From a virus: 24,019 nucleotides of DNA. Below the pieces are notes generated by a model. It ran no database searches. It was not told where the DNA came from and saw only the letters and a program-made list of their open reading frames with translations. Positions 1,642 through 19,152 of the stretch are shown piece after piece (within the stretch, counting starts at the first letter, position 1; each line of letters begins with the position of its first letter). Where the stretch lies: the IMG/VR virus record IMGVR_UViG_3300048838_000564, positions 1 through 24,019 of that record; one strand, given 5' to 3'. The position numbers were made by a program, and so were the translations under genes.

Positions 1642-2060
1642 CGAAGGTGACCTTGTCGGGTGGTGGGCTGAGTACGACCCTGCTCTCCATCGACGTCCCG
1701 GATCGACCGCTGTGCTCCGTGGGGCTCTCGCTTCTGGAGGGCGCGCTGAAGCGCGCCGAGAAGGCGCTGCGCAACGTCAACCTTAGCACGGCGGAGGTGA
1801 CGCAGCGCGAGCAGGAGCGCGAGGCACTGGCGAAGATGTTCAGTCAGGGCGGCACCCTCCTCGATCTGGGAGTGCCGCTGCACCTGATCCCCACGCTCCG
1901 CTGCGCGCTTGCCCTCCACTACCACTCAGCCGTCTCGGTGCAGGAGGAGCAACAGGATCTGGCGATGGACACGGAGGAGACTGATGCACGGGTGGCCCAG
2001 CTGGGTCGCCTGCTCTCCCGCATCGACGTCGAGGGACTCGGCAAGGAGACCACGGAATGA
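1638..2060 (+). CDS. Hypothetical protein upstream of the replication module
   Basis: This encodes 140 residues from an ATG in an ATGA overlap. A short beta-rich N-terminus (VTLSGGGLSTTLLSIDVP) is followed by helices with a Glu/Arg-rich middle. No catalytic motif is recognised. It overlaps the ParB-like gene by 4 nt, so it is probably made with the replication and recombination proteins and may be an accessory factor. Confidence 0.6.
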   Translation: MTKVTLSGGGLSTTLLSIDVPDRPLCSVGLSLLEGALKRAEKALRNVNLSTAEVTQREQEREALAKMFSQGGTLLDLGVPLHLIPTLRCALALHYHSAVSVQEEQQDLAMDTEETDARVAQLGRLLSRIDVEGLGKETTE

Positions 2061-3694
2061 CCACCCCACCGCAGGACATGACAGCGGCGCTCTTGGAGAT
2101 CCCGCTCGCGTTGCTGCGCGAGTCGCCGCTCAACTACCGCGAGCTGATTGACGCGAAGGACGACGCCGAGCTTGAGGCCTCGCTCGCGAGTCAGGGCCAG
2201 CTCACGCCCCTGCTCGCGCGGCCACACTACGACGCCAAGGGTGGCATCCTCTACTACGAGGTGGCCGCCGGCGCGTCGCGGCTGCGCTGTGCGACCCGCC
2301 TGCAGTGGACCACGCTGCTCGTCGTGGTGCGCGAGATGGATGACCGCGCCTTCCTGGAGGCGATGGTCACCGAGAACCTGCAACGCCACGATCCGCATCC
2401 TGTGGATGAGGCCATGGCCTACGCGCGCCTCGAGGCCCTGGGCTACTCGCATGCCGACCTCGGGGCACGATTCGGTAAGCCCGCCAGCTACGTGGCACGG
2501 CGCGCGAAGCTGGTCGACCTGATTCCGGAGGTCCGCAAGGCCTTCCTGAAGGGCAGCCTGTTCATCGGGCACGCCGAGCTGTTGGCACGGTGCACGCCGG
2601 CCCAGCAGGAGAAGGGCCTCAAGCTCGCGATGCGCTGGGACGGCAACCCGGTCCCGATCAAGGACCTCGAGCACGCCATCGAGCGCGAGTTCCACCTGCC
2701 GCTCGGGAAGGCACCCTTCAAGACGGATGACGCCACGCTCCTGCCGGCCGCCGGTGCATGCCTCACGTGCCCGAAGCGGAGCGGCTCGATGCCGGATCTC
2801 TTCGCCGACATCAAGGGCGAGAACGTCTGCACCGATGGTGCCTGCTACAAGGCCAAGGTGCGGGCACTGATCACGCATCGCATGCAGGAGACGCGCGCCG
2901 ACGGCACCCCGCTGGTGCGCTTGAGCGAGCAGTACCGCTACGGCAACGACCGATCCGTGAAGGAGGGCGCGCCGATCCCGTCCAACTACTGGACCGTGGC
3001 GAAGAAGAGCACGCCCGGCGCCGTGGAGGGGATCTTCGTGAGTGGCGAGAAGGTCGGTCGCACGGCCTGGGTGACGCTGTCACTCCCGAAGCCCACGAAG
3101 GAAGGGGCCAAGCCCAAGAGCACCGCCACGAAGAGCGACAACCACCAGGCGCAGCAGGATCACTTCAAGGCGGTTGAGGAGCCGGCACGGGAGCAGGCAC
3201 TCCTCGCCCTTCTGCTCGCGGTCCGTGAAGCTGCCGAGGAGCACGGCACGGATCAGGTCCTGCGCACCGTGCTCTGCGAGGGGCTGGCATGCGCATGGTC
3301 TGAGGGCGGCAACCCGGAGCTCTTCCTCCCGGACGCGAAGTCGACATGCAGCGCACTGGGGCTCCCAGCGCCGGCGCGGCCGCGCGACGCAGGCCTTGAA
3401 CTGGGACACCTCGCGGGTCGGCCTGAGTTCTGGGTGCTGTCGTTCACCGATGACGAGGTGCATCGCACATGGCTCGGGGACGAGTGCCGAATGCTCACGC
3501 GGCTCTGCCAGCTCTTCAAGGTGGACCTCGCCGCCATCCGCGCCCAACTCGAGGGCGCGTACCAGACCGCGCAGCAGGCGGCCAAGGATGCTGCGAAGGC
3601 GAAGGTCACGACCAAGCCCGCAAAGGCCAAGAAGGCCGCGAAGAAGCGTGCCGGCGACGTGAAGCGCGCGAAGGCCAAGGGCGCTGCGTCGTGA
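2057..3694 (+). CDS. ParB/RepB-family DNA-binding protein
   Basis: This encodes 545 residues. The N-terminal ParB/Srx nucleotide-binding fold is recognisable: IPLALLRESPLNYR early, GASRLRCA (72-79) at the box-II position and ENLQRHDPHPVDEA (106-119), the most conserved ParB box. A helix-turn-helix follows at about 128-152. Four cysteines (235, 238, 258, 263) form a C-x2-C ... C-x4-C motif found in many phage ParB-like proteins. The last 35 residues are an Ala/Lys-rich, histone-H1-like tail. No ParA partner is in the window. It sits directly before the Rad52-like gene (GTGA overlap), so a role in replication or recombination is as likely as plasmid-type partition. Confidence 0.85.
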   Translation: MTTPPQDMTAALLEIPLALLRESPLNYRELIDAKDDAELEASLASQGQLTPLLARPHYDAKGGILYYEVAAGASRLRCATRLQWTTLLVVVREMDDRAFLEAMVTENLQRHDPHPVDEAMAYARLEALGYSHADLGARFGKPASYVARRAKLVDLIPEVRKAFLKGSLFIGHAELLARCTPAQQEKGLKLAMRWDGNPVPIKDLEHAIEREFHLPLGKAPFKTDDATLLPAAGACLTCPKRSGSMPDLFADIKGENVCTDGACYKAKVRALITHRMQETRADGTPLVRLSEQYRYGNDRSVKEGAPIPSNYWTVAKKSTPGAVEGIFVSGEKVGRTAWVTLSLPKPTKEGAKPKSTATKSDNHQAQQDHFKAVEEPAREQALLALLLAVREAAEEHGTDQVLRTVLCEGLACAWSEGGNPELFLPDAKSTCSALGLPAPARPRDAGLELGHLAGRPEFWVLSFTDDEVHRTWLGDECRMLTRLCQLFKVDLAAIRAQLEGAYQTAQQAAKDAAKAKVTTKPAKAKKAAKKRAGDVKRAKAKGAAS

Positions 3695-4293
3695 TCCACG
3701 TTCCCTCGCTCGAGGTGCGCACCCTCACGGCCCCGTTCCACCCCGACCAGGTGCACTGGATGGTGGCGCAGACGGGCATCGGTGATGGCGGACTCATCTG
3801 GGCGCGCATCGTGCCCTATGTCACGGCCGACACGCTGCGTGAGCGCCTCGACGTGGCGCTCGGCATCGACGGCTGGACCAGTCACCTCGAGGAGGTCACG
3901 CTCGGCACGCAGGTGGGCTTCAAGTGCCGTCTGCGCGTGCGACTGCACGGCAGGTGGATCTACCGCGAGGACGTGGCACCGCTCACCGAGGAAGACGCCT
4001 TGAAGGGTGGTGCAAGCTCCGCGTTCAAGCGTGCGTGCTTGGCGCTCGGCGTCGGCTCGAACCTCCGTCGGCGGACCGCGGTCTTCGCCGAGATCGTGAC
4101 CAAAGGGGAGCACACCGGCGTGCACATCAACAAGAATGGCACGGAGAAGACGTTCCGCTGGCGCGTGCCGTCGGATGAGCTCCGTGACATGCTCGAGGAC
4201 TACGTGACGGTCAAGGACCAGATCGCCGCGCTGCAGCGTCATCAGAAAGAGCAGTCCGTAATCGACTCTGCTCTCATACCGGTGGGGCTATGA
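3691..4293 (+). CDS. Rad52-type single-strand annealing protein
   Basis: This encodes 200 residues from a GTG overlapping the ParB stop. It carries the hallmarks of the phage Rad52/22 family: PYVTADTLRERLDVALGIDG followed by W (residues 42-62), and KGGASSAFKRACLALGVG (105-122), the variant of the conserved K-G-x-S-D-A-x-K-R-A-x-x-x-x-G-I-G core. Such proteins anneal complementary single strands during phage recombination and DNA repair. They are often paired with an exonuclease, and none is recognised here. It lies between the ParB-like and initiator genes, coupled at both ends. Confidence 0.85.
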   Translation: MIHVPSLEVRTLTAPFHPDQVHWMVAQTGIGDGGLIWARIVPYVTADTLRERLDVALGIDGWTSHLEEVTLGTQVGFKCRLRVRLHGRWIYREDVAPLTEEDALKGGASSAFKRACLALGVGSNLRRRTAVFAEIVTKGEHTGVHINKNGTEKTFRWRVPSDELRDMLEDYVTVKDQIAALQRHQKEQSVIDSALIPVGL

Positions 4294-5204
4294 AGGGACT
4301 CAGTTACGTGGCAGTGGATCCCGCGATCGCGGCGGATGTGCGCATCTTCCGCATGGCGGAGGCCCTGGGCGTGGACCGGTTCTGGTTGGTCGGGCACCTC
4401 CCCCAGTTCTTCGGAGCGCTGGCCGCCAATCAACCCGACGGCGACATTGCAGCGATCCCTGATGCCGTCCTCGATCACTGGGCGGGGGATGTTCCGGGCT
4501 TCGGTGTCCAGGTGCGCGAGCACCTCTGTGACGCCGGGAGCACGCAGCTCCGGAGTTGGGCGAAGTACAACGGCAAAGCGCTGGCCTCCTTGGAGCGTGA
4601 TCGCACGCGGAAGCGCGAGGCCCGTGAGGCTCGCGAGCGTCTCGCGCGTGAGCAGCGGGCCACCGCGAAGGGAAGTTCCACGGAAGATCCGGGGAACGTC
4701 CGTGGAACTTCCGAGGACGCTCCGTCGAAAGAGGGTGGAACGTCACCGGAAGATCCGGGGACAGTCCCCGCCCGTTCCGCGGTCATAACCGGAACCGGAA
4801 CCGATACCGGAACCAAACTACAAACAGCGACGCACTCCGCAGGTGTGCGCGAGCGCGCATCAGCGATCCAGGCGGTACTGCCGACACGCTGCCATGACGC
4901 CCTGCGACGCCTCCTGGTCAACGCCCATGCTGGCGCCGCCGGCGTGCTCGACCAGATCGAGGGATTGCTCGCGCTCAATCCGAAAGTGAACCCGACGGGA
5001 CCGGGCCAGAAGCCCGTGTCACCTGAGCACGTTGCCGAGGTCGTCATCCGCCTCTCCTCGACCACGAGGGCGCAGTGGCACCAGGGGATGGCGATCACGA
5101 TCGTCGGGGAGCTGCAGCGCGGACGCCCCGCGCCTCGGACCTCGCGCAACGGGCATGAACCCGCTGCCCGCCCACTCTCACGCACGAAGGTGCCGATCCT
5201 GTGA
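4290..5204 (+). CDS. Replication initiator-like protein (lambda O analogue by position)
   Basis: This encodes 304 residues. The N-terminal 100 residues (DVRIFRMAEALGVDRFWLVG ... LRSWAKYNGKALASLERDR) resemble the N-terminal DNA-binding domain of phage replisome-organiser proteins. A charged helix leads to a low-complexity Ser/Thr/Gly/Pro linker (about 128-176). A C-terminal helical domain (about 185-280) follows. The gene precedes a DnaC-like loader, the same order as lambda O-P. Its linker DNA is packed with palindromes and repeats, as in lambda, where ori lies in O. The initiator role is inferred from architecture and neighbours, since no unambiguous motif is present. Confidence 0.65.
   Translation: MKGLSYVAVDPAIAADVRIFRMAEALGVDRFWLVGHLPQFFGALAANQPDGDIAAIPDAVLDHWAGDVPGFGVQVREHLCDAGSTQLRSWAKYNGKALASLERDRTRKREAREARERLAREQRATAKGSSTEDPGNVRGTSEDAPSKEGGTSPEDPGTVPARSAVITGTGTDTGTKLQTATHSAGVRERASAIQAVLPTRCHDALRRLLVNAHAGAAGVLDQIEGLLALNPKVNPTGPGQKPVSPEHVAEVVIRLSSTTRAQWHQGMAITIVGELQRGRPAPRTSRNGHEPAARPLSRTKVPIL
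4671..4830. other. Candidate replication origin inside the initiator gene
   Basis: A 13-bp perfect inverted repeat occupies 4671-4683 and 4700-4712. A 15-bp perfect direct repeat lies at 4681-4695 and 4747-4761. Hyphenated palindromes CCGGA-AGA-TCCGG (4746-4758) and GGGGAC-A-GTCCCC (4757-4769) overlap. Five tandem hexamers of the AACCGG type fill 4787-4816, followed by a short A-rich stretch. The cluster falls in the disordered linker of the initiator. Lambda and relatives place initiator-binding iterons exactly there. The origin function is inferred. Confidence 0.55.
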
Positions 5205-6058
5205 CCGAGCCCACGCCCACCAGCGCGATCCAGCTCATGCCGGATCAGCCGCACGCCACCTGCCGGCGCTGCCAGAGCGCCTTCCCGCTCTCGACGGTGA
5301 AGAGCACCTTCACGGGCAACCCGCTCCCCGTCACGCGCACGTTCTGCGACGCGTGCGAGGCCTCGATGCGGATGGAGGAAGCCCGGCAGCAGGAGGCGGC
5401 CCAGCGCGAAGCTGCATCGCGGCGCATTCAGCGCGCCCTCGCCGACCTCGCTGCCCCCGCGGCGTATGCCGGGCTCGCGTTGCAGGACGTCGGGTTCTGG
5501 GGGTCCCCCGCACAACAGGAGCGGACGGGCCGCGCCCTCCAGGTGGCGCGTCGTATCGTGGGGGAGCTGCAGTCAGGCTTGCGGCCACCGCCGTTCGTGG
5601 CGTTCATCGGCCGCCCGGGCAACGGCAAGACGATGCTCTGCTGGGCGATCGCGACCGAGCTCGCCACCAAGGGTGGGCACAGCTGCCGGGTGGTCCGACT
5701 CTCGGCGCTCATTCGCGACTTGCGCGCGAACTGGGGCAGCACGAAGAAGTCCGGCCCCAGTGATGAGCAGCGACTGAAGCGCTACATCGAGCTGGACTAC
5801 CTCGCGATCGACGAGGTGAGTCGCGATGCGTTCTACGGGACGCTCCGGCAGCACCTCCTCGACGTCATCAACGCCCGCATCGATGAGCGCCGGCCGACGG
5901 TGATCACGAGCAACGAGTCGCTGGAGGACCTGGAGGCGTTGCTCGGTCCGGCACTGATGTCGCGGCTCTCGCTCGGCGGGGTGGTGCACTTCGGGGACGA
6001 TGAAGACTTCCGGCAGCTCAGCAGTGACGATCGCCAGGGGCCAGCCGCATGCGCGTGA
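5201..6058 (+). CDS. DnaC/IstB-type AAA+ helicase loader
   Basis: This encodes 285 residues from a GTG in a GTGA overlap. An N-terminal four-cysteine zinc site (C21-x2-C24 and C49-x2-C52) precedes a helical linker. The AAA+ domain has Walker A GRPGNGKT (137-144), Walker B LDYLAIDEV (198-206) and a sensor-I-like ITSNES. IstB/DnaC proteins load the replicative helicase at an origin. The position directly after the initiator-like gene matches lambda P and similar modules. IstB of IS21 elements is excluded because no transposase is adjacent. Confidence 0.88.
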   Translation: MTEPTPTSAIQLMPDQPHATCRRCQSAFPLSTVKSTFTGNPLPVTRTFCDACEASMRMEEARQQEAAQREAASRRIQRALADLAAPAAYAGLALQDVGFWGSPAQQERTGRALQVARRIVGELQSGLRPPPFVAFIGRPGNGKTMLCWAIATELATKGGHSCRVVRLSALIRDLRANWGSTKKSGPSDEQRLKRYIELDYLAIDEVSRDAFYGTLRQHLLDVINARIDERRPTVITSNESLEDLEALLGPALMSRLSLGGVVHFGDDEDFRQLSSDDRQGPAACA

Positions 6059-6681
6059 TCCCCGTGGACCTCATCCAGTTCGACGACGCCACCTGGTGGC
6101 TCCGCCACGGCAGTCGGATGATGCGGGTCGATGAGACCGACTGGTTGACGGCAGGTGAGGCGCCGGCGGCGCATGAGGGCGACGCGACGTTGCATGGGCG
6201 CGCGAGGAAGGACAGGCCTTCTGCCTGGGCCATCGAGAGCCGCAAGCTCGAGCGGGAGACCGCAGGAGCACCACCGATACCGGTGCCGGTCGAGTCTCCG
6301 AAGGGCGGGAAGACCCCCCGTACCCCCACGCCGGCGAAGGTGGCGGCGAAGCTCCGTCGCGAGGCCGGACTGCCGGGAAAGAAGAAGCGGGTCAAGCCCG
6401 ACGAGGCGAAGGTCGCCCGGGCTCGCAAGTTGGTCGAGCATCAGGGGTACACCCTGAAGCGGGCGGCCGCTGCCGTCGAGATGAACTACGCGACCCTCTA
6501 CGGGCGCGCGACGCGGGAGGGATGGGATGTCCCGAAGCGCGGTACCGCATCGGTACCCGAACCGAAGCTGCCCACCGAGAAGTCGCCTCGCCAGGCGGTG
6601 AGGTGCCCGAACTGCAAGCGCAAGACGGAGACGTCGCCCTGCCGCCACTGTTTCGAAAAGGTCCCGGAGCTCACCGCATGA
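6049..6681 (+). CDS. HTH plus C-terminal zinc-ribbon protein
   Basis: This encodes 210 residues and overlaps the loader by 10 nt. A Pro/Lys-rich linker leads to a homeodomain-like helix-turn-helix at about 121-160 (ARKLVEHQGYTLKRAAAAVE then NYATLYGRATREGW), of the resolvase/transposase-HTH type. It ends in a zinc ribbon with C186-x2-C189-x8-C198-x2-C201. No catalytic domain is visible, so it is most likely a DNA-binding regulator. The same zinc ribbon spacing closes the gene at 15973-16506. Similar HTH proteins act as late or antitermination-type regulators in other phages, but that is not shown here. Confidence 0.65.
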   Translation: MRVIPVDLIQFDDATWWLRHGSRMMRVDETDWLTAGEAPAAHEGDATLHGRARKDRPSAWAIESRKLERETAGAPPIPVPVESPKGGKTPRTPTPAKVAAKLRREAGLPGKKKRVKPDEAKVARARKLVEHQGYTLKRAAAAVEMNYATLYGRATREGWDVPKRGTASVPEPKLPTEKSPRQAVRCPNCKRKTETSPCRHCFEKVPELTA

Positions 6682-6944
6682 TTGATCTGCAGAAGTATGC
6701 CGACACCACGATCCTGACGACCTCCGAGGTGGCGCGGTGGATCAATGCGCGGAGCCCGAAGGCGGCGTGCCGGATGCTGTATGCCAAGGGCGTGAAGCCC
6801 GTCGGGCGTGCAACGCAGTACCATTTCCTCGCACGTGATGTGAAGCGTGCCCTGCTCGGAGTTAGCCAAGAGCCAGAAGAGGAGGTCCCGGTGCCGAGCA
6901 GCGCCGCGATCGTCAGCCTGGTCCACCGCCGGAGACCCGCGTGA
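6678..6944 (+). CDS. Small excisionase-like HTH protein
   Basis: This encodes 88 residues from an ATG in an ATGA overlap. The N-terminal 55 residues (ILTTSEVARWINARSPKAAC ... FLARDVKRALLG) fit a MerR/excisionase-type winged helix: a helix-turn-helix, a basic wing and a helix starting with the typical D-V-K-x-x-L. Directly preceding the integrase gene, it is a natural candidate for the recombination directionality factor. A second such protein lies across the att site at 8292-8501. The evidence is motif plus position. Confidence 0.6.
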   Translation: MIDLQKYADTTILTTSEVARWINARSPKAACRMLYAKGVKPVGRATQYHFLARDVKRALLGVSQEPEEEVPVPSSAAIVSLVHRRRPA

Positions 6945-8017
6945 TGACGCCCCATAAGGCCACCAACGGTCGCGGCACCTTGCTGCTCGATCGCATCTTC
7001 GCCGGAGTCGGTCGGATTCGTCGCGCCAGTGGGACCAACAAGGTCCGCGAACGCGATGCCATCAACGCCATGCTGACCGAGCTGTATGAGCAGGGCAAGG
7101 ATCGCCCGGCCTATCACCGGGTGCTCGAGCTGATCGCGAGCGGTGAGCTGAAGCCGTTCGAGGTGTGGAAGGCGTATCGTGCCGGCAGCCTGGATCAGCT
7201 GCGCGACGTCAAGACCTCGGGTGACCTTGAGACGGCGTGGACCTCGTGGCAGGACGGCACCACGAATCGGCAGACCCGTCAGCAGCGAGCGGCCTCCTGG
7301 AAGCGCCTGCTTACCGTGCTACCTGCGCACCCTACCATCGGGGCGCTGCCCGAGGCCTTGCTCGCGATGCGGGAGACGTTCGCCGGGCAGCCGCCGGCGT
7401 TCAACCGGACCAAGGCCGCGGTACAGGCCTTCTGCCGGGATCGCCTTACGAAGCTGCACCCGATCTACCTGGCGTGCCGTGCGGTCGAACCGTTGCCGGA
7501 ATTCCCGGCGGAACGCGAGGCTCCGACCATCCGGCGTGCCATGCTCGCGCGCGCGACGCTCGCGGCCCTCTCCCCGAAGGCGGCCGACATCTGGTGGAGC
7601 ATGTACCTCCTCGGCACCAATCCTGACGAGTTCGACCTCGCCTGGGTGGTGCGGCCGCAGGAGGTCTTCGTCCCTGGGACCAAGCGGCGGGGACGTCGGC
7701 GTCGCGTGCCGCTCCTCGGCACGCTGCATCGTCGTGGCATGGGGTGGACGCAGTACCGTGCGGTGCTCAAGGAAGCCGACCTCGGCCTGCAGCCGAATGA
7801 TGCCCGTCGCGGCTATGAGCACCTCCTCGAGGAGAGTGCGATCCCTGCGACCCGGATCAAGCTGTACATGGGACATCGACTGAACGTCACGGAGCGGTAC
7901 GGCCGTGCGGAGCTCGATGCGTTTCTGGTGGCGGATGCGGACCGGATTCGCGCCCGACTGGCCCAGGAAGAGGCCGCGTTGGTTGCGGAGGCGCGGGGAG
8001 AGATGCGGTTGGCGTAG
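6941..8017 (+). CDS. int: Divergent tyrosine recombinase (phage integrase)
   Basis: This encodes 358 residues from GTG 6941; ATG 6944 is equally possible. The N-terminal half is helical and basic, as arm/core-binding domains are. The C-terminal catalytic domain is recognisable: GTNPDEF (225-231) at box I, GTKRRGRRRRVPL with the active-site Lys at 248, NDARR (286-290) at box II, YMGH (309-312) and the nucleophile Tyr320 in TERYG. The canonical box I Arg appears replaced by Asn227, and the HxxR His by Asn286. Arg289 or Arg290, His312 and Tyr320 remain. The candidate attP follows directly, which supports integrase function. Confidence 0.85.
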   Translation: MMTPHKATNGRGTLLLDRIFAGVGRIRRASGTNKVRERDAINAMLTELYEQGKDRPAYHRVLELIASGELKPFEVWKAYRAGSLDQLRDVKTSGDLETAWTSWQDGTTNRQTRQQRAASWKRLLTVLPAHPTIGALPEALLAMRETFAGQPPAFNRTKAAVQAFCRDRLTKLHPIYLACRAVEPLPEFPAEREAPTIRRAMLARATLAALSPKAADIWWSMYLLGTNPDEFDLAWVVRPQEVFVPGTKRRGRRRRVPLLGTLHRRGMGWTQYRAVLKEADLGLQPNDARRGYEHLLEESAIPATRIKLYMGHRLNVTERYGRAELDAFLVADADRIRARLAQEEAALVAEARGEMRLA

Positions 8018-8037
8018 GGAGCATGCTCGGGAAAAAA

Positions 8038-8060
8038 GTCCCCGAACATGTCCCCGAACA
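8038..8060 (+). repeat. Left pair of att direct repeats
   Basis: GTCCCCGAACA occurs at 8038-8048 and again at 8050-8060, a 12-bp spacing. The same pair recurs at 8245-8267 in the same orientation, about 40-80 bp outside the inverted repeat on each side. A degenerate inverted copy (CATGCTCGGGA, 8022-8032) lies just left and could pair with the first repeat. Paired 10-11 bp repeats flanking a core are typical of integrase arm-type or Xis sites. Binding is inferred. Confidence 0.7.
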
Positions 8061-8075
8061 TTGCTGTAGCGACCC

Positions 8076-8218
8076 GGGTGGAGATCCCGCATTGTCGCGT
8101 CGTACCTAGTGCCCCGAGAAGGACTCGAACCTTCAACCTAGTGATTAAGAGTCACCCGTAGGGGTGGCACTCAGGGCGCACCTCAGGTACAGCGCGGCAT
8201 TGCAGGGCATCTCCACCC
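8076..8218. repeat. Large imperfect inverted repeat around the att core
   Basis: The arm 8076-8107 is matched in inverse orientation by 8185-8218. GGGTGGAGAT (8076-8085) pairs perfectly with 8209-8218 and GTACCT (8102-8107) with 8185-8190. By hand alignment about 28 of 35 columns match. Inside this, the tRNA acceptor strand at 8111-8117 can pair with 8171-8177 (one G-T wobble). All pairs share a centre near 8145, the anticodon loop. The DNA could form a cruciform, or the arms may be inverted protein-binding sites. Confidence 0.65.
8110..8156 (-). other. tRNA-Lys(CTT) 3' half: att core identity segment
   Basis: Read on the minus strand, the segment gives the anticodon arm with loop CTCTTAA (anticodon CTT), a 5-nt variable loop, a T arm GAAGG-TTCGAGT-CCTTC, the 3' acceptor strand TCGGGGC and A73. 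No encoded CCA follows; the next bases read CTA. There is no normal D arm on the 5' side. Phage integrases of this class recombine in tRNA genes and carry the 3' half so that the gene is restored after integration. Confidence 0.8.
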
Positions 8219-8244
8219 ACGCAGGGACCCGGAATACCTCCGAA

Positions 8245-8267
8245 GTCCCCGAACAAGTCCCCGAACA
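8245..8267 (+). repeat. Right pair of att direct repeats
   Basis: GTCCCCGAACA occurs at 8245-8255 and 8257-8267, with the same 12-bp period as the left pair. Both pairs are followed by TTG. The repeat ends 25 bp before the ATG of the small HTH gene at 8292, so a protein bound here could also affect its expression. Confidence 0.7.
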
Positions 8268-8291
8268 TTGGGGCACACCGTGGGGGTGAAG

Positions 8292-8501
8292 ATGGCCAGT
8301 ACGACCACCGAACGCGCAGGCGGGATTCTCAACCTGAGCCCGCGTCAAGTGCGCCGCTATATCGCGGACGGGACCATCACGGTCCTCCGACGAGCCAACG
8401 AGAAGGACCGCAAGCGGCTCGGCTGTCCCGCGAACACCTGGATCCTCGACGGGGACTCGGTCCTCAAGTTGAAGCGCGCGCGGCGCAAGGCGGGCCTGTG
8501 A
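8292..8501 (+). CDS. Small excisionase/MerR-like HTH protein
   Basis: This encodes 69 residues from ATG 8292, with GGGGGTGA just upstream; TTG 8268 and GTG 8280 are weaker in-frame starts. ILNLSPRQVRRYIADGTITV followed by LRR is a MerR/Xis-type helix-turn-helix with wing, and DGDSVLKLKRARR closes it. It is the first gene beyond attP. Together with the HTH gene before int, att is bracketed by two candidate directionality or regulatory factors. It could instead be a control protein for the small-gene array that it heads. Confidence 0.6.
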   Translation: MASTTTERAGGILNLSPRQVRRYIADGTITVLRRANEKDRKRLGCPANTWILDGDSVLKLKRARRKAGL

Positions 8502-8785
8502 GCGCCGCCGAGAAGGACCGCGCCGACCGCGCGGCGATCGAGAACGTCGGGGTGGCCATCGCACGACTCAACGATGCCCTCCGCGACGCGATGGCGCTGA
8601 AGATCCGCGTCGAGTTCGGGGTGGTCTACCCTGACGCCAGCCGTCAGAAGGTCGCCCAGGAATGGCGCCAGCTGTGGTCTGAGGACGGGCTGGCGGCTCG
8701 CTTCACCCGCGAAGAGATCTTCACCGCGCCTGCGCCCACACCTCCGCCGGTCGATGGGGCCCCGAACATCGGGGGTGGCGCGTGA
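8498..8785 (+). CDS. Hypothetical protein
   Basis: This encodes 95 residues from a GTG in a GTGA overlap. The first 70 residues are mixed charged helices (ADRAAIENVGVAIARLNDAL). The tail is Pro/Gly-rich (APAPTPPPVDGAPN) and probably disordered. No family is recognised. It is coupled to both neighbours in the small-gene array. Confidence 0.55.
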   Translation: MSAAEKDRADRAAIENVGVAIARLNDALRDAMALKIRVEFGVVYPDASRQKVAQEWRQLWSEDGLAARFTREEIFTAPAPTPPPVDGAPNIGGGA

Positions 8786-16733: not shown

Positions 16734-17227
16734 TGGCTGAGCACATCATCCAGAAAGACCTCGCAACCCGGCTCGGGCTCGATGTTCGGCAGATCCGTCG
16801 CCTCGAGGATGCCGGGATGCCGACTCGCGTCCGCAAGGGTCGGAAGGATTACCCGTGGCCTGGGTCGCTCCACTGGTACCTCGATTGGAAGGTGCAGTCA
16901 GAACTCGCGCGGCGCGCGCCCGGTGAGAAGTCGGACCTCGAGACGCGCGAGCTCGCGGCCAAGGTTCGGCTCGCCGAGATCAAGGTCGCGGAAGCCGAAG
17001 GGAAGACCATTCCGGTGCCGATCGTGAATCGCCGGTTCGAGGTCATCCACCAGCAGACCGCCGGCGCCATCCGGGCTCTGCGGCAGTACGCCGGTGACTT
17101 CGTCGGTTTAACGACGCTCGCGGAAGCCACACTCCGCTGCGAACGCATTGCCAACGAGCTGCTCGCACGAGCGCGCGCGGACGATGAGGACGACGAAGAG
17201 CCACCAGCGGACCCGGCGGCGGCATGA
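16733..17227 (+). CDS. Terminase small subunit, Nu1-like
   Basis: This encodes 164 residues from ATG 16733 (TAATG). An N-terminal winged-helix DNA-binding domain (IIQKDLATRLGLDVRQIRRL ... MPTRVRKGRKDYPWPGSLHW) matches the Nu1 type. A helical part (LETRELAAKVRLAEIKVAEA followed by EGKTIPV) is characteristic of Nu1-family proteins. The tail is acidic (DDEDDEEPPAD). TerS binds cos/pac DNA and starts packaging with TerL. It directly precedes TerL, as in lambda. Confidence 0.85.
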   Translation: MAEHIIQKDLATRLGLDVRQIRRLEDAGMPTRVRKGRKDYPWPGSLHWYLDWKVQSELARRAPGEKSDLETRELAAKVRLAEIKVAEAEGKTIPVPIVNRRFEVIHQQTAGAIRALRQYAGDFVGLTTLAEATLRCERIANELLARARADDEDDEEPPADPAAA

Positions 17228-19152
17228 TCGCGCTCGTGGAGGAGGAAGTCGAGGAAGAGTTCACCGTCGAGGGTGCCGAGGAGCGGTGCCGTGACCTCGA
17301 CAGGGCACTCCGCCGCAAGATCTACCGGACCCAAGACTGGCTCACGACCAGCCAGTGGGCGGAGAAGTATCTCTGGCTCTCCCCGGAAGACACCGGCGAG
17401 TTGCTGAAGTACAAGCTCTCGCTCACGCCCTGGCATCGTGAGCCGATGGACGCGCTCGGCGACCTTCGGGTCCGCCGCGTCGTGCTCAAGTGGGCCAGTC
17501 AGACGGGCAAATCAACGCTCTACAAGGCGGACATGGGGGCACGGACCCACCAGCGACCCAGTCCGATGATCTACGTCTTCCCCCGTGTCGAAGACGCGGA
17601 GCTGTTCTCGAAGGAGCGGCTCGATCCGATGTTTCGCGACACCCCCATCCTCCAGGGGCTGATCAGCGACGCCACTCGCGACAAGCGCAATACGATGCGG
17701 CGGAAGTCGATTCCCGCTGGCTACATCGGCCTCGTGGGTTCGAACTCACCGGCCGCTCTCGCGGCACGGTCCTCACCGGTCGTGCGGGCCGATGAGGTGA
17801 ACCGCATGGCTGAGAGCGCGGGCGACGAGGGCGATCCGCTCGGCATCATCTTCCGCCGCATGGCGCGATTCGAGTTCAGCTCCTTTGCCGCCGCCTCCTC
17901 GCCGACGATCGAGGGCGCGTGCCGGATCACCTCGGAGTACGCCACTACGGACCAGCGTGAATGGTGGGTCCCCTGCCCCCACTGCGACGTGCCCCAGATG
18001 TTGCGCTTCGGTGGTCGCGACACGGAGTGGGGAATCAAATGGGTCTCCGGTCGGCCAGAGACCGCCGTCTACGTCTGTTGCCACTGCTCGAAAAGCATCG
18101 CTGAGCACTACAAGGCGGAGATGAACGCTGGCGCTGAGTGGGTACCGCAGGTTCCCGACATGCTCGACCGAGGGTACTGGCTGAATGCGCTGGTGAGCCC
18201 CTTTGCGGGAGCCAGGTGGCCCCGGCTCGTTGCCGAGTTTCTGGAGAAGAAGGCCGACCCAACGAAGCTGCAGGGCTTCGTCAACACGGTCCTGTGCGAG
18301 ACCTGGCGCGAGGACGGGGTGCAAGCGTCCGAGGAGGAATTGCTTGAGCGCCTGGAGGCCTATGACCCGTCCCTCTCCGATGAGGCGAGGCCCATACCAG
18401 CTGGCGCGGCGATCATCACACGATCTGTGGACGTGCAGGATGACCGTCTCGAGACGGCCGTGTGGGCCTTCGGCGCCGACGACGAGAGCTGGCTCATTGA
18501 CTACGACTACATCCCCGGTGATCCCGGTACCGGTACGCCGTGGCGCGAACTCACCGATATCCGCGCCCGGACCTACCGTCATGCGAGCGGGCATGAGCTG
18601 AAGCCGTTCGCCACCTTCATCGACTCCGGCGGTCACCACACTCAGATGGTCTACCGGTACGCCAAGCGCTACATCCGGGACAACGTCTGGGCGATCAGGG
18701 GCGTCGAGGGTGAGGGTGCGCCCATCCTGGGCAAGCCCAGCCGGAACAACTCGGCGAAGGTCACCGTGTATGCCGTGTCGAGCTTCAGCGGCAAAGAGAC
18801 GTTCCTGAAGCGGTTGATCAAAGTCACCGAACCAGGACCCGCCTTCGTGCATCTCCCCCACTGGCTGGAAGGGGAGCAGCTCCGGCAGTTCGGGAATGAG
18901 CAGCTGGTGCCGCGGTTCGTCAACGGCCGCCTCAAACGCGTCTGGGTCCGCAAGGGCCCCAACGAAATGATCGACCTTGCCGTGTACGCGCTCGCCGCCC
19001 TGCAGCTGCTGGGTGAGAAGAAGCTCGCGGAGCTCGGCGCCGTCGCCCAGTGGATGATGGACAACCCGCCCAATCCGGCCAATGGCTCCACCTCTGAGGT
19101 GGTGCCGAACGTTCCGCGTCGCCGGGTCCGTTCCGCGGGGGTGCAGGTGTAG
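17224..19152 (+). CDS. Terminase large subunit, lambda gpA family
   Basis: This encodes 642 residues, the expected length for gpA. The ATPase carries a Walker-A-type loop ASQTGKS (91-97) and a Walker-B-type PVVRADEV (185-192). A Cys motif (CPHC 251-254 with C285/C286/C288) is common in this family. The C-terminal nuclease has metal-binding Asp in SVDVQDD (Asp403) and FIDSGGHH (Asp467). It cuts concatemers and pumps DNA into the prohead with TerS and the portal. It overlaps TerS by 4 nt. Confidence 0.95.
   Translation: MIALVEEEVEEEFTVEGAEERCRDLDRALRRKIYRTQDWLTTSQWAEKYLWLSPEDTGELLKYKLSLTPWHREPMDALGDLRVRRVVLKWASQTGKSTLYKADMGARTHQRPSPMIYVFPRVEDAELFSKERLDPMFRDTPILQGLISDATRDKRNTMRRKSIPAGYIGLVGSNSPAALAARSSPVVRADEVNRMAESAGDEGDPLGIIFRRMARFEFSSFAAASSPTIEGACRITSEYATTDQREWWVPCPHCDVPQMLRFGGRDTEWGIKWVSGRPETAVYVCCHCSKSIAEHYKAEMNAGAEWVPQVPDMLDRGYWLNALVSPFAGARWPRLVAEFLEKKADPTKLQGFVNTVLCETWREDGVQASEEELLERLEAYDPSLSDEARPIPAGAAIITRSVDVQDDRLETAVWAFGADDESWLIDYDYIPGDPGTGTPWRELTDIRARTYRHASGHELKPFATFIDSGGHHTQMVYRYAKRYIRDNVWAIRGVEGEGAPILGKPSRNNSAKVTVYAVSSFSGKETFLKRLIKVTEPGPAFVHLPHWLEGEQLRQFGNEQLVPRFVNGRLKRVWVRKGPNEMIDLAVYALAALQLLGEKKLAELGAVAQWMMDNPPNPANGSTSEVVPNVPRRRVRSAGVQV

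Follow-up and report, generated by a model that had tools for sequence, protein, structure and literature searches.

In phage lambda, the whole of the sib element is located beyond attP, and the original work on it is reportedly that of Schindler and Echols in 1981. This downstream element retroregulates lambda int, reducing the int mRNA that comes from the early transcript (PMC5300877). In ICEKp1, int transcription switches with the integration state, and stem-loops attenuate int (PMC13023037). Among tyrosine recombinases, IntCTnDOT and IntDes lack the first catalytic arginine and carry box changes similar to those described below (PMC8138268).

The window analyzed here is a virus contig of 24,019 bases. 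Positions 8018-8291, the 274 bases between the int stop at 8017 and a small helix-turn-helix (HTH) gene, are, as judged from sequence, the attP of a temperate phage. The locus resembles lambda-type attPs in having the integrase gene beside attP, a tRNA 3'-half core, arm-type repeats on both sides, and adjacent small HTH genes, and lambda Int is the best structural match of its integrase. Unlike a lambda-type attP, it has arm sites that form two direct pairs with a 12-bp period in one orientation, a core enclosed within a 43/49-base inverted repeat, and an integrase without the first catalytic arginine. The hairpin predicted from that repeat resembles lambda sib in that it is structured, lies 3' of int in the int-sense orientation, and is parted from int by integration; unlike sib, its arms straddle the crossover, so that recombination itself would split it. 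ICEKp1 and ICEclc are similar in being tRNA-integrating elements with stem-loops, in which int expression is set by the attP versus att-end context (PMC13023037), but theirs are stem-loops in the int 5' UTR combined with promoter switching, whereas the structure described here lies 3' of int. The features of the locus are as follows.

6678-6944, + strand: small HTH protein, candidate excisionase/RDF from its translation, directly upstream of int
6941-8017, + strand: lambda-type tyrosine integrase, divergent and probably starting at ATG 6944, assigned through PHROG_1 matches of its family and AlphaFold, Foldseek, and VIA
8038-8060, + strand: left arm-type pair of GTCCCCGAACA, 12-bp period, with counterparts in relatives L047, L036, L003, L006, and L008
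8076-8118, + strand: left arm of the core-spanning inverted repeat, including the tRNA acceptor 3' strand (0/2000 shuffles, 0/3302 positions)
8110-8177, - strand: tRNA-Lys(CTT)-like segment (Rfam tRNA, 38.5 bits), with a host-type 3' half, the 5' acceptor strand kept, and the D-arm shortened
8119-8155, - strand: core whose 37 bases match bacterial tRNA-Lys(CTT) genes exactly, running from the anticodon stem-loop to the T-arm
8145-8151, no strand assigned: anticodon loop TTAAGAG, putative crossover/overlap region, at the end of tRNA-like identity
8170-8218, + strand: right arm of the core-spanning inverted repeat, alignment score 36 against the left arm
8245-8267, + strand: right arm-type pair of GTCCCCGAACA, 12-bp period
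8292-8501, + strand: another small HTH protein, encoded immediately beyond the right arm, with weak HTH_17/MerR and excisionase matches

The integrase and its relatives

The 358-residue window integrase had zero sequence matches in Pfam, PHROG, NCBIfam, and PDB. Six of the seven family members in the first set of relatives matched the PHROG_1 integrase, and the AlphaFold model of the window protein (pLDDT 87.5) gave lambda Int 1z1g as its best Foldseek match, with VIA-align Z scores of 13.5 for the SSV1 Int catalytic domain and 12.7 for lambda Int. Four residues are invariant in the family alignment: R289, K248, H312, and Y320, the presumed nucleophile. The window integrase has no box I arginine (GTNPDEF, N227), which leaves the canonical catalytic set incomplete; this arginine is also absent from most relatives (GMGPKEY and similar) in a family that takes in L002-L008, L029, L036, and L047, a likeness to IntCTnDOT and IntDes (PMC8138268), and is retained only in L037 and L038. 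At box II, His is replaced by Tyr in most family members, as in IntDes (PMC8138268), and by Asn in the window.

Relatives were sought in IMG/VR with the back-translated motif DxRRx[YF]...[IV]PxxRxxxYxGH, and the integrases so found align at 25-37% identity. The closest relative, L047, has an integrase 40% identical to that of the window. Exact peptide patterns retrieved no near relatives of the window from IMG/VR; tblastn found no match to the window integrase in phages, nor to those of relatives L006 in phages and L008 in plasmids. An integrase profile likewise had no hits in 396 Acidobacteriota and 392 Planctomycetota genomes, a search that lacked a positive control and is uninformative.

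A small HTH-like ORF lies just 5' of int in L002, L003, L006, L036, L037, L038, and L047 as well. The last of these shares the window's gene order and has orthologs of both window HTH genes at matching positions, that of the 8292-8501 protein (MAGTTTEKAAARLDLSERQVRRL...) included. Farther 5' of int, the window carries an ordinary temperate-phage replication and recombination block, with a ParB-like protein (2057-3694), a Rad52/Erf-like annealing protein (3538-4293), and a DnaC-like helicase loader (5201-6058). A GpA-type terminase gene is found at 17224-19152. A single-strand att site of the integron-attC or CTX type was also weighed and is unlikely, as single-stranded DNA phage genes are absent from the parts examined and the integrase fold is lambda Int-like.

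The tRNA core and the arm-type sites

The Rfam tRNA match at 8110-8177 spans the full model length and exceeds the gathering score, while ARAGORN finds no tRNA gene in the region, which lacks a complete cloverleaf with D-arm. Rather than being a tRNA gene, the segment is a captured tRNA 3' half plus a 5' acceptor strand that is either a remnant or an imitation. Identity over the 37-base core extends to tRNA-Lys(CTT) in 19 genome contigs, mostly from Dehalococcoidia or other Chloroflexi, but also from Planctomycetota, Acidobacteria, and others. The phage acceptor TCGGGGCA occurs in none of these 19 contigs, and a host search for the exact tRNA with the phage acceptor sequence yielded, at best, one Phycisphaeraceae genome with two mismatches.

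In the window and in L003, L006, L008, L036, and L041, the tRNA-like identity ends with the anticodon stem-loop or slightly beyond it, and we infer that strand exchange takes place within the anticodon loop. A tRNA 3' half follows the int stop in L003, L006, and L047 (all Asn) and in L041 (Lys), and also in L008 and L036, where it carries GATCCGAAG and has no assigned isotype. At the provirus edge in L029 (positions 1-300, G014), int is followed directly by a complete host tRNA-Asn, which is direct support for anticodon integration by this integrase family. Junctions (attL/attR) for the window phage itself were not found, and the L029 record covers only the int end.

The window contains exactly four copies of the repeat GTCCCCGAACA, always on the + strand, at 8038-8048, 8050-8060, 8245-8255, and 8257-8267. 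The copies make up two pairs, one on each side of the core, just as the initial annotation had described them. The 28-mers at 8036-8063 and 8243-8270 differ by one base (96% identity). Pairs of CCCC-containing repeats with the same period flank the core on both sides in L047, L036, L003, and L006, and in L008 such a pair is seen left of the core only. Across the core, the pair-to-pair distance is ~190-210 bp, always in int orientation, in the window, L003, L006, L036, and L047. L047 has both exact and near copies of GTCCCCGAACA. A search of IMG/VR for the exact arm-pair pattern had no hits. As the 12-bp-period repeats and the tRNA core are kept among integrase relatives, the repeats are ordinary, conserved arm-type sites, and the attP that had been proposed on their basis is borne out by these relatives and by the intact tRNA-Asn of L029. 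Nor are paired direct arm sites special as such, since an architecture search turned up pairs of C-rich repeats flanking tRNA-like cores in phages that do not belong to this integrase family.

Other features of these regions were also seen. A further near-copy of the arm site, the fifth, is GGCCCCGAACA at 8758-8768, with one mismatch, ~490 bp past the right pair and inside the next genes. C-rich direct-repeat pairs with a 12-bp period surround tRNA-like cores in L048/L050, L051, and L052, all outside this integrase family, and in L048 and L052 a local hairpin lies between these repeats and the core. The IHF core consensus is CAANNNNTTA, and an IHF-like motif, TAAGTCGTTG (reverse complement CAACGACTTA), recurs just outside the tRNA 3' end, left of the core, in L005/L041, L006, L036, and L008. 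It has an inverted copy across the core in L006, is degenerate in L008, and is absent from the window.

An inverted repeat across the putative crossover

For the inverted-repeat test, only the sequence between the arm sites and the core was used, so that the arm repeats were excluded. Positions 8076-8118 and 8170-8218 form an imperfect inverted repeat of 43/49 bases with a local score of 36, a value reached in none of 2000 dinucleotide shuffles and at none of 3302 other window positions. Arms at 8076-8107 and 8185-8218 had been noted before; these are real, but the inner limit drawn for them was too far out, as the repeat continues ~11 bp further inward. It also takes in the GTACCT/AGGTAC pair and the acceptor-strand pair at 8171-8177, for which a common centre had been claimed; the centres of the outer arms (~8147) and of the acceptor pair (~8144) fall on or next to the anticodon loop. 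The arms are separated by a spacer of 51 bases.

Folding of the region on both strands, a check proposed in the initial annotation, gave z-scores of -6.5 for + strand RNA, -4.1 for - strand RNA, and -5.6 for + strand single-stranded DNA. Overall, the int-sense fold ranges from -6.3 to -6.5 and that of the minus strand from -3.3 to -4.1. On the int-sense strand, the hairpin begins 58 nt past the int stop. Substitutions between the two arms show no strand preference. The region has no T-run or intrinsic terminator, and reading the hairpin as an intrinsic terminator was therefore rejected. Among 26 other tRNA-core sites with C-rich repeats, which are candidate att sites, only one fell below 0.05, so that calling the layout not standard was fair.

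We compared the int-sense folds of 170 bases centred on the crossover in seven family attPs. The window has 45 pairs crossing the crossover (z -6.3) and L047 has 52 (z -3.7; 1/200 shuffles, 2/136 other places). The hairpin across the core of L006 is weak by folding, and none was detected in the four others, L003, L008, L036, and L041. Core-crossing inverted-repeat scores are 20 for L047 (28/2000 shuffles), 22 for L006 (17/2000), and 21 for L008 (6/2000), while L003, L036, and L041 are at chance relative to other places in their own loci. L047 is thus modest by alignment alone (28-33/2000), and the L008 alignment signal, which has no folding support, was dropped. Comparison with relatives sharing the integrase therefore upholds the 12-bp-period repeats and the tRNA core as retained features, but not the inverted repeat, which is strong only in L047. 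The repeat is real, but it is confined to the window and the closest relative, with L006 as a possible third case. As four of the seven attPs show no hairpin by folding and that of L006 is weak, this integrase family does not need it.

L047 combines arm sites nearly identical to those of the window with its own core-spanning hairpin, which has a different sequence and is built on a different tRNA. Each arm matches its own partner (0/2000 shuffles as high for the window, 33/2000 for L047), whereas window arms against L047 arms are at chance (1824/2000 and 1993/2000), and comparing like arms between the two phages gives nothing above chance either. Structure is thus kept while sequence is not. 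If conserved proteins acted on conserved sites here, the sequence should have been retained too, which is the case at the arm sites; the pattern therefore speaks for a hairpin and against conserved sites for proteins. The readings that remain after this comparison of sequences are probably a maintained hairpin or two independent accidents.

A possible integration-state switch

We propose, with a probability of roughly 0.4, that the hairpin is a lambda sib-like retroregulator of int that is split by integration. When the phage is free, circular, or replicating, any int transcript that reads through the intact attP would include the entire hairpin. The hairpin would then restrain int from the 3' side, by admitting RNase III or by blocking readthrough, as in the case of lambda sib. 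Integration would send the left arm to attL and the right arm to attR, and with the arms parted, the prophage int transcript would lack the hairpin. Restraint would work only while attP is intact, and integration would lift it. As expected of a sib-type element, the predicted hairpin lies 3' of int in the int-sense orientation and is lost from the int transcript in in-silico joints. In attL-like joints modelled at five host tRNA loci, the structure disappears (z -0.3 to -1.2, versus -6.3 for attP), and attR-like joints give z-scores of 0.4 to -1.9; these models show both the geometry and the loss of the hairpin. Its transcription, its cleavage, and its effect on int are presumed. More tentative still is the full proposal that this attP may be its own integration-state switch, with hairpin halves that flank the crossover, restrain int in the free phage, and are dismantled by int-catalysed recombination, pairing rather than sequence being kept.

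Several observations sit uneasily with retroregulation. The minus strand folds too (z -3.3 to -4.1), most family attPs have no hairpin and that of L047 is modest by alignment, a centre on the crossover fits a role at the level of DNA no less than one at the level of RNA, and the paired acceptor strands are possibly a relic of whole-tRNA-gene capture. Such a relic would be non-functional: a whole tRNA gene would have been captured with an inverted duplication of its 3' flank by template switch, and the D-arm would then have decayed, leaving the acceptor strand and the flank copy. We regard this as possible but doubtful. The full-length, D-arm-poor tRNA matches kept in the window and L047 (38.5 and 26.8 bits) are consistent with it, as are a right arm resembling an inverted copy of the left, tRNA 3' end included, and the dispensability of the hairpin in most relatives. 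However, a relic should decay, and the window and L047, with integrases 40% identical and different tRNAs, both have a hairpin in the same position but made of unrelated sequences, so that either two independent events or maintained pairing must be assumed.

A role at the DNA level, with symmetric sites for accessory proteins (HTH/RDF or an IHF-like bending protein) or a cruciform about the integrase core, is unlikely. The repeat is centred on the crossover in the window and roughly there in L047, small HTH genes lie on both flanks of the region, and the shorter inverted repeat of L006, TAAGTCGTTG/CAACGACTTA, resembles the IHF core; yet the arm sequences of the window and L047 differ though integrase sites and both HTH genes are common to them, and the window arms contain no IHF-like motif. 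The suggestion in the initial annotation that the repeat positions two integrase dimers fares poorly for the same reason, as most relatives have no repeat and in L047 its sequence differs while the arm sites are near-identical. Its alternative, a cruciform, is disfavoured by the large, 51-base spacer, and there is no sign of single-stranded processing. Very improbable, in our view, is a minus-strand tRNA-like RNA that is transcribed and then processed (RNase P/Z) or charged, with leader-trailer pairing lengthening its acceptor stem. The above-gathering Rfam score, the paired acceptor stem, and the 26.8 bits of L047 across the full model would fit such an RNA, but the D-arm is missing, CCA is not encoded, ARAGORN is negative, and a promoter-like site was not found; L006 scores 15.2 bits over a partial match, L041 has no match, and the host-derived 3' half probably gives most of the Rfam score.

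The analysis contributes an integrase family that is little known and lacks the box I arginine, together with a map of its att sites. Should the hairpin control int as a retroregulator, integration would be sensed through the physical splitting of an RNA structure, a switch that works without an extra protein. If true, this would be a second route, beside lambda sib and promoter switching, by which integrase supply is tied to attP versus attL.
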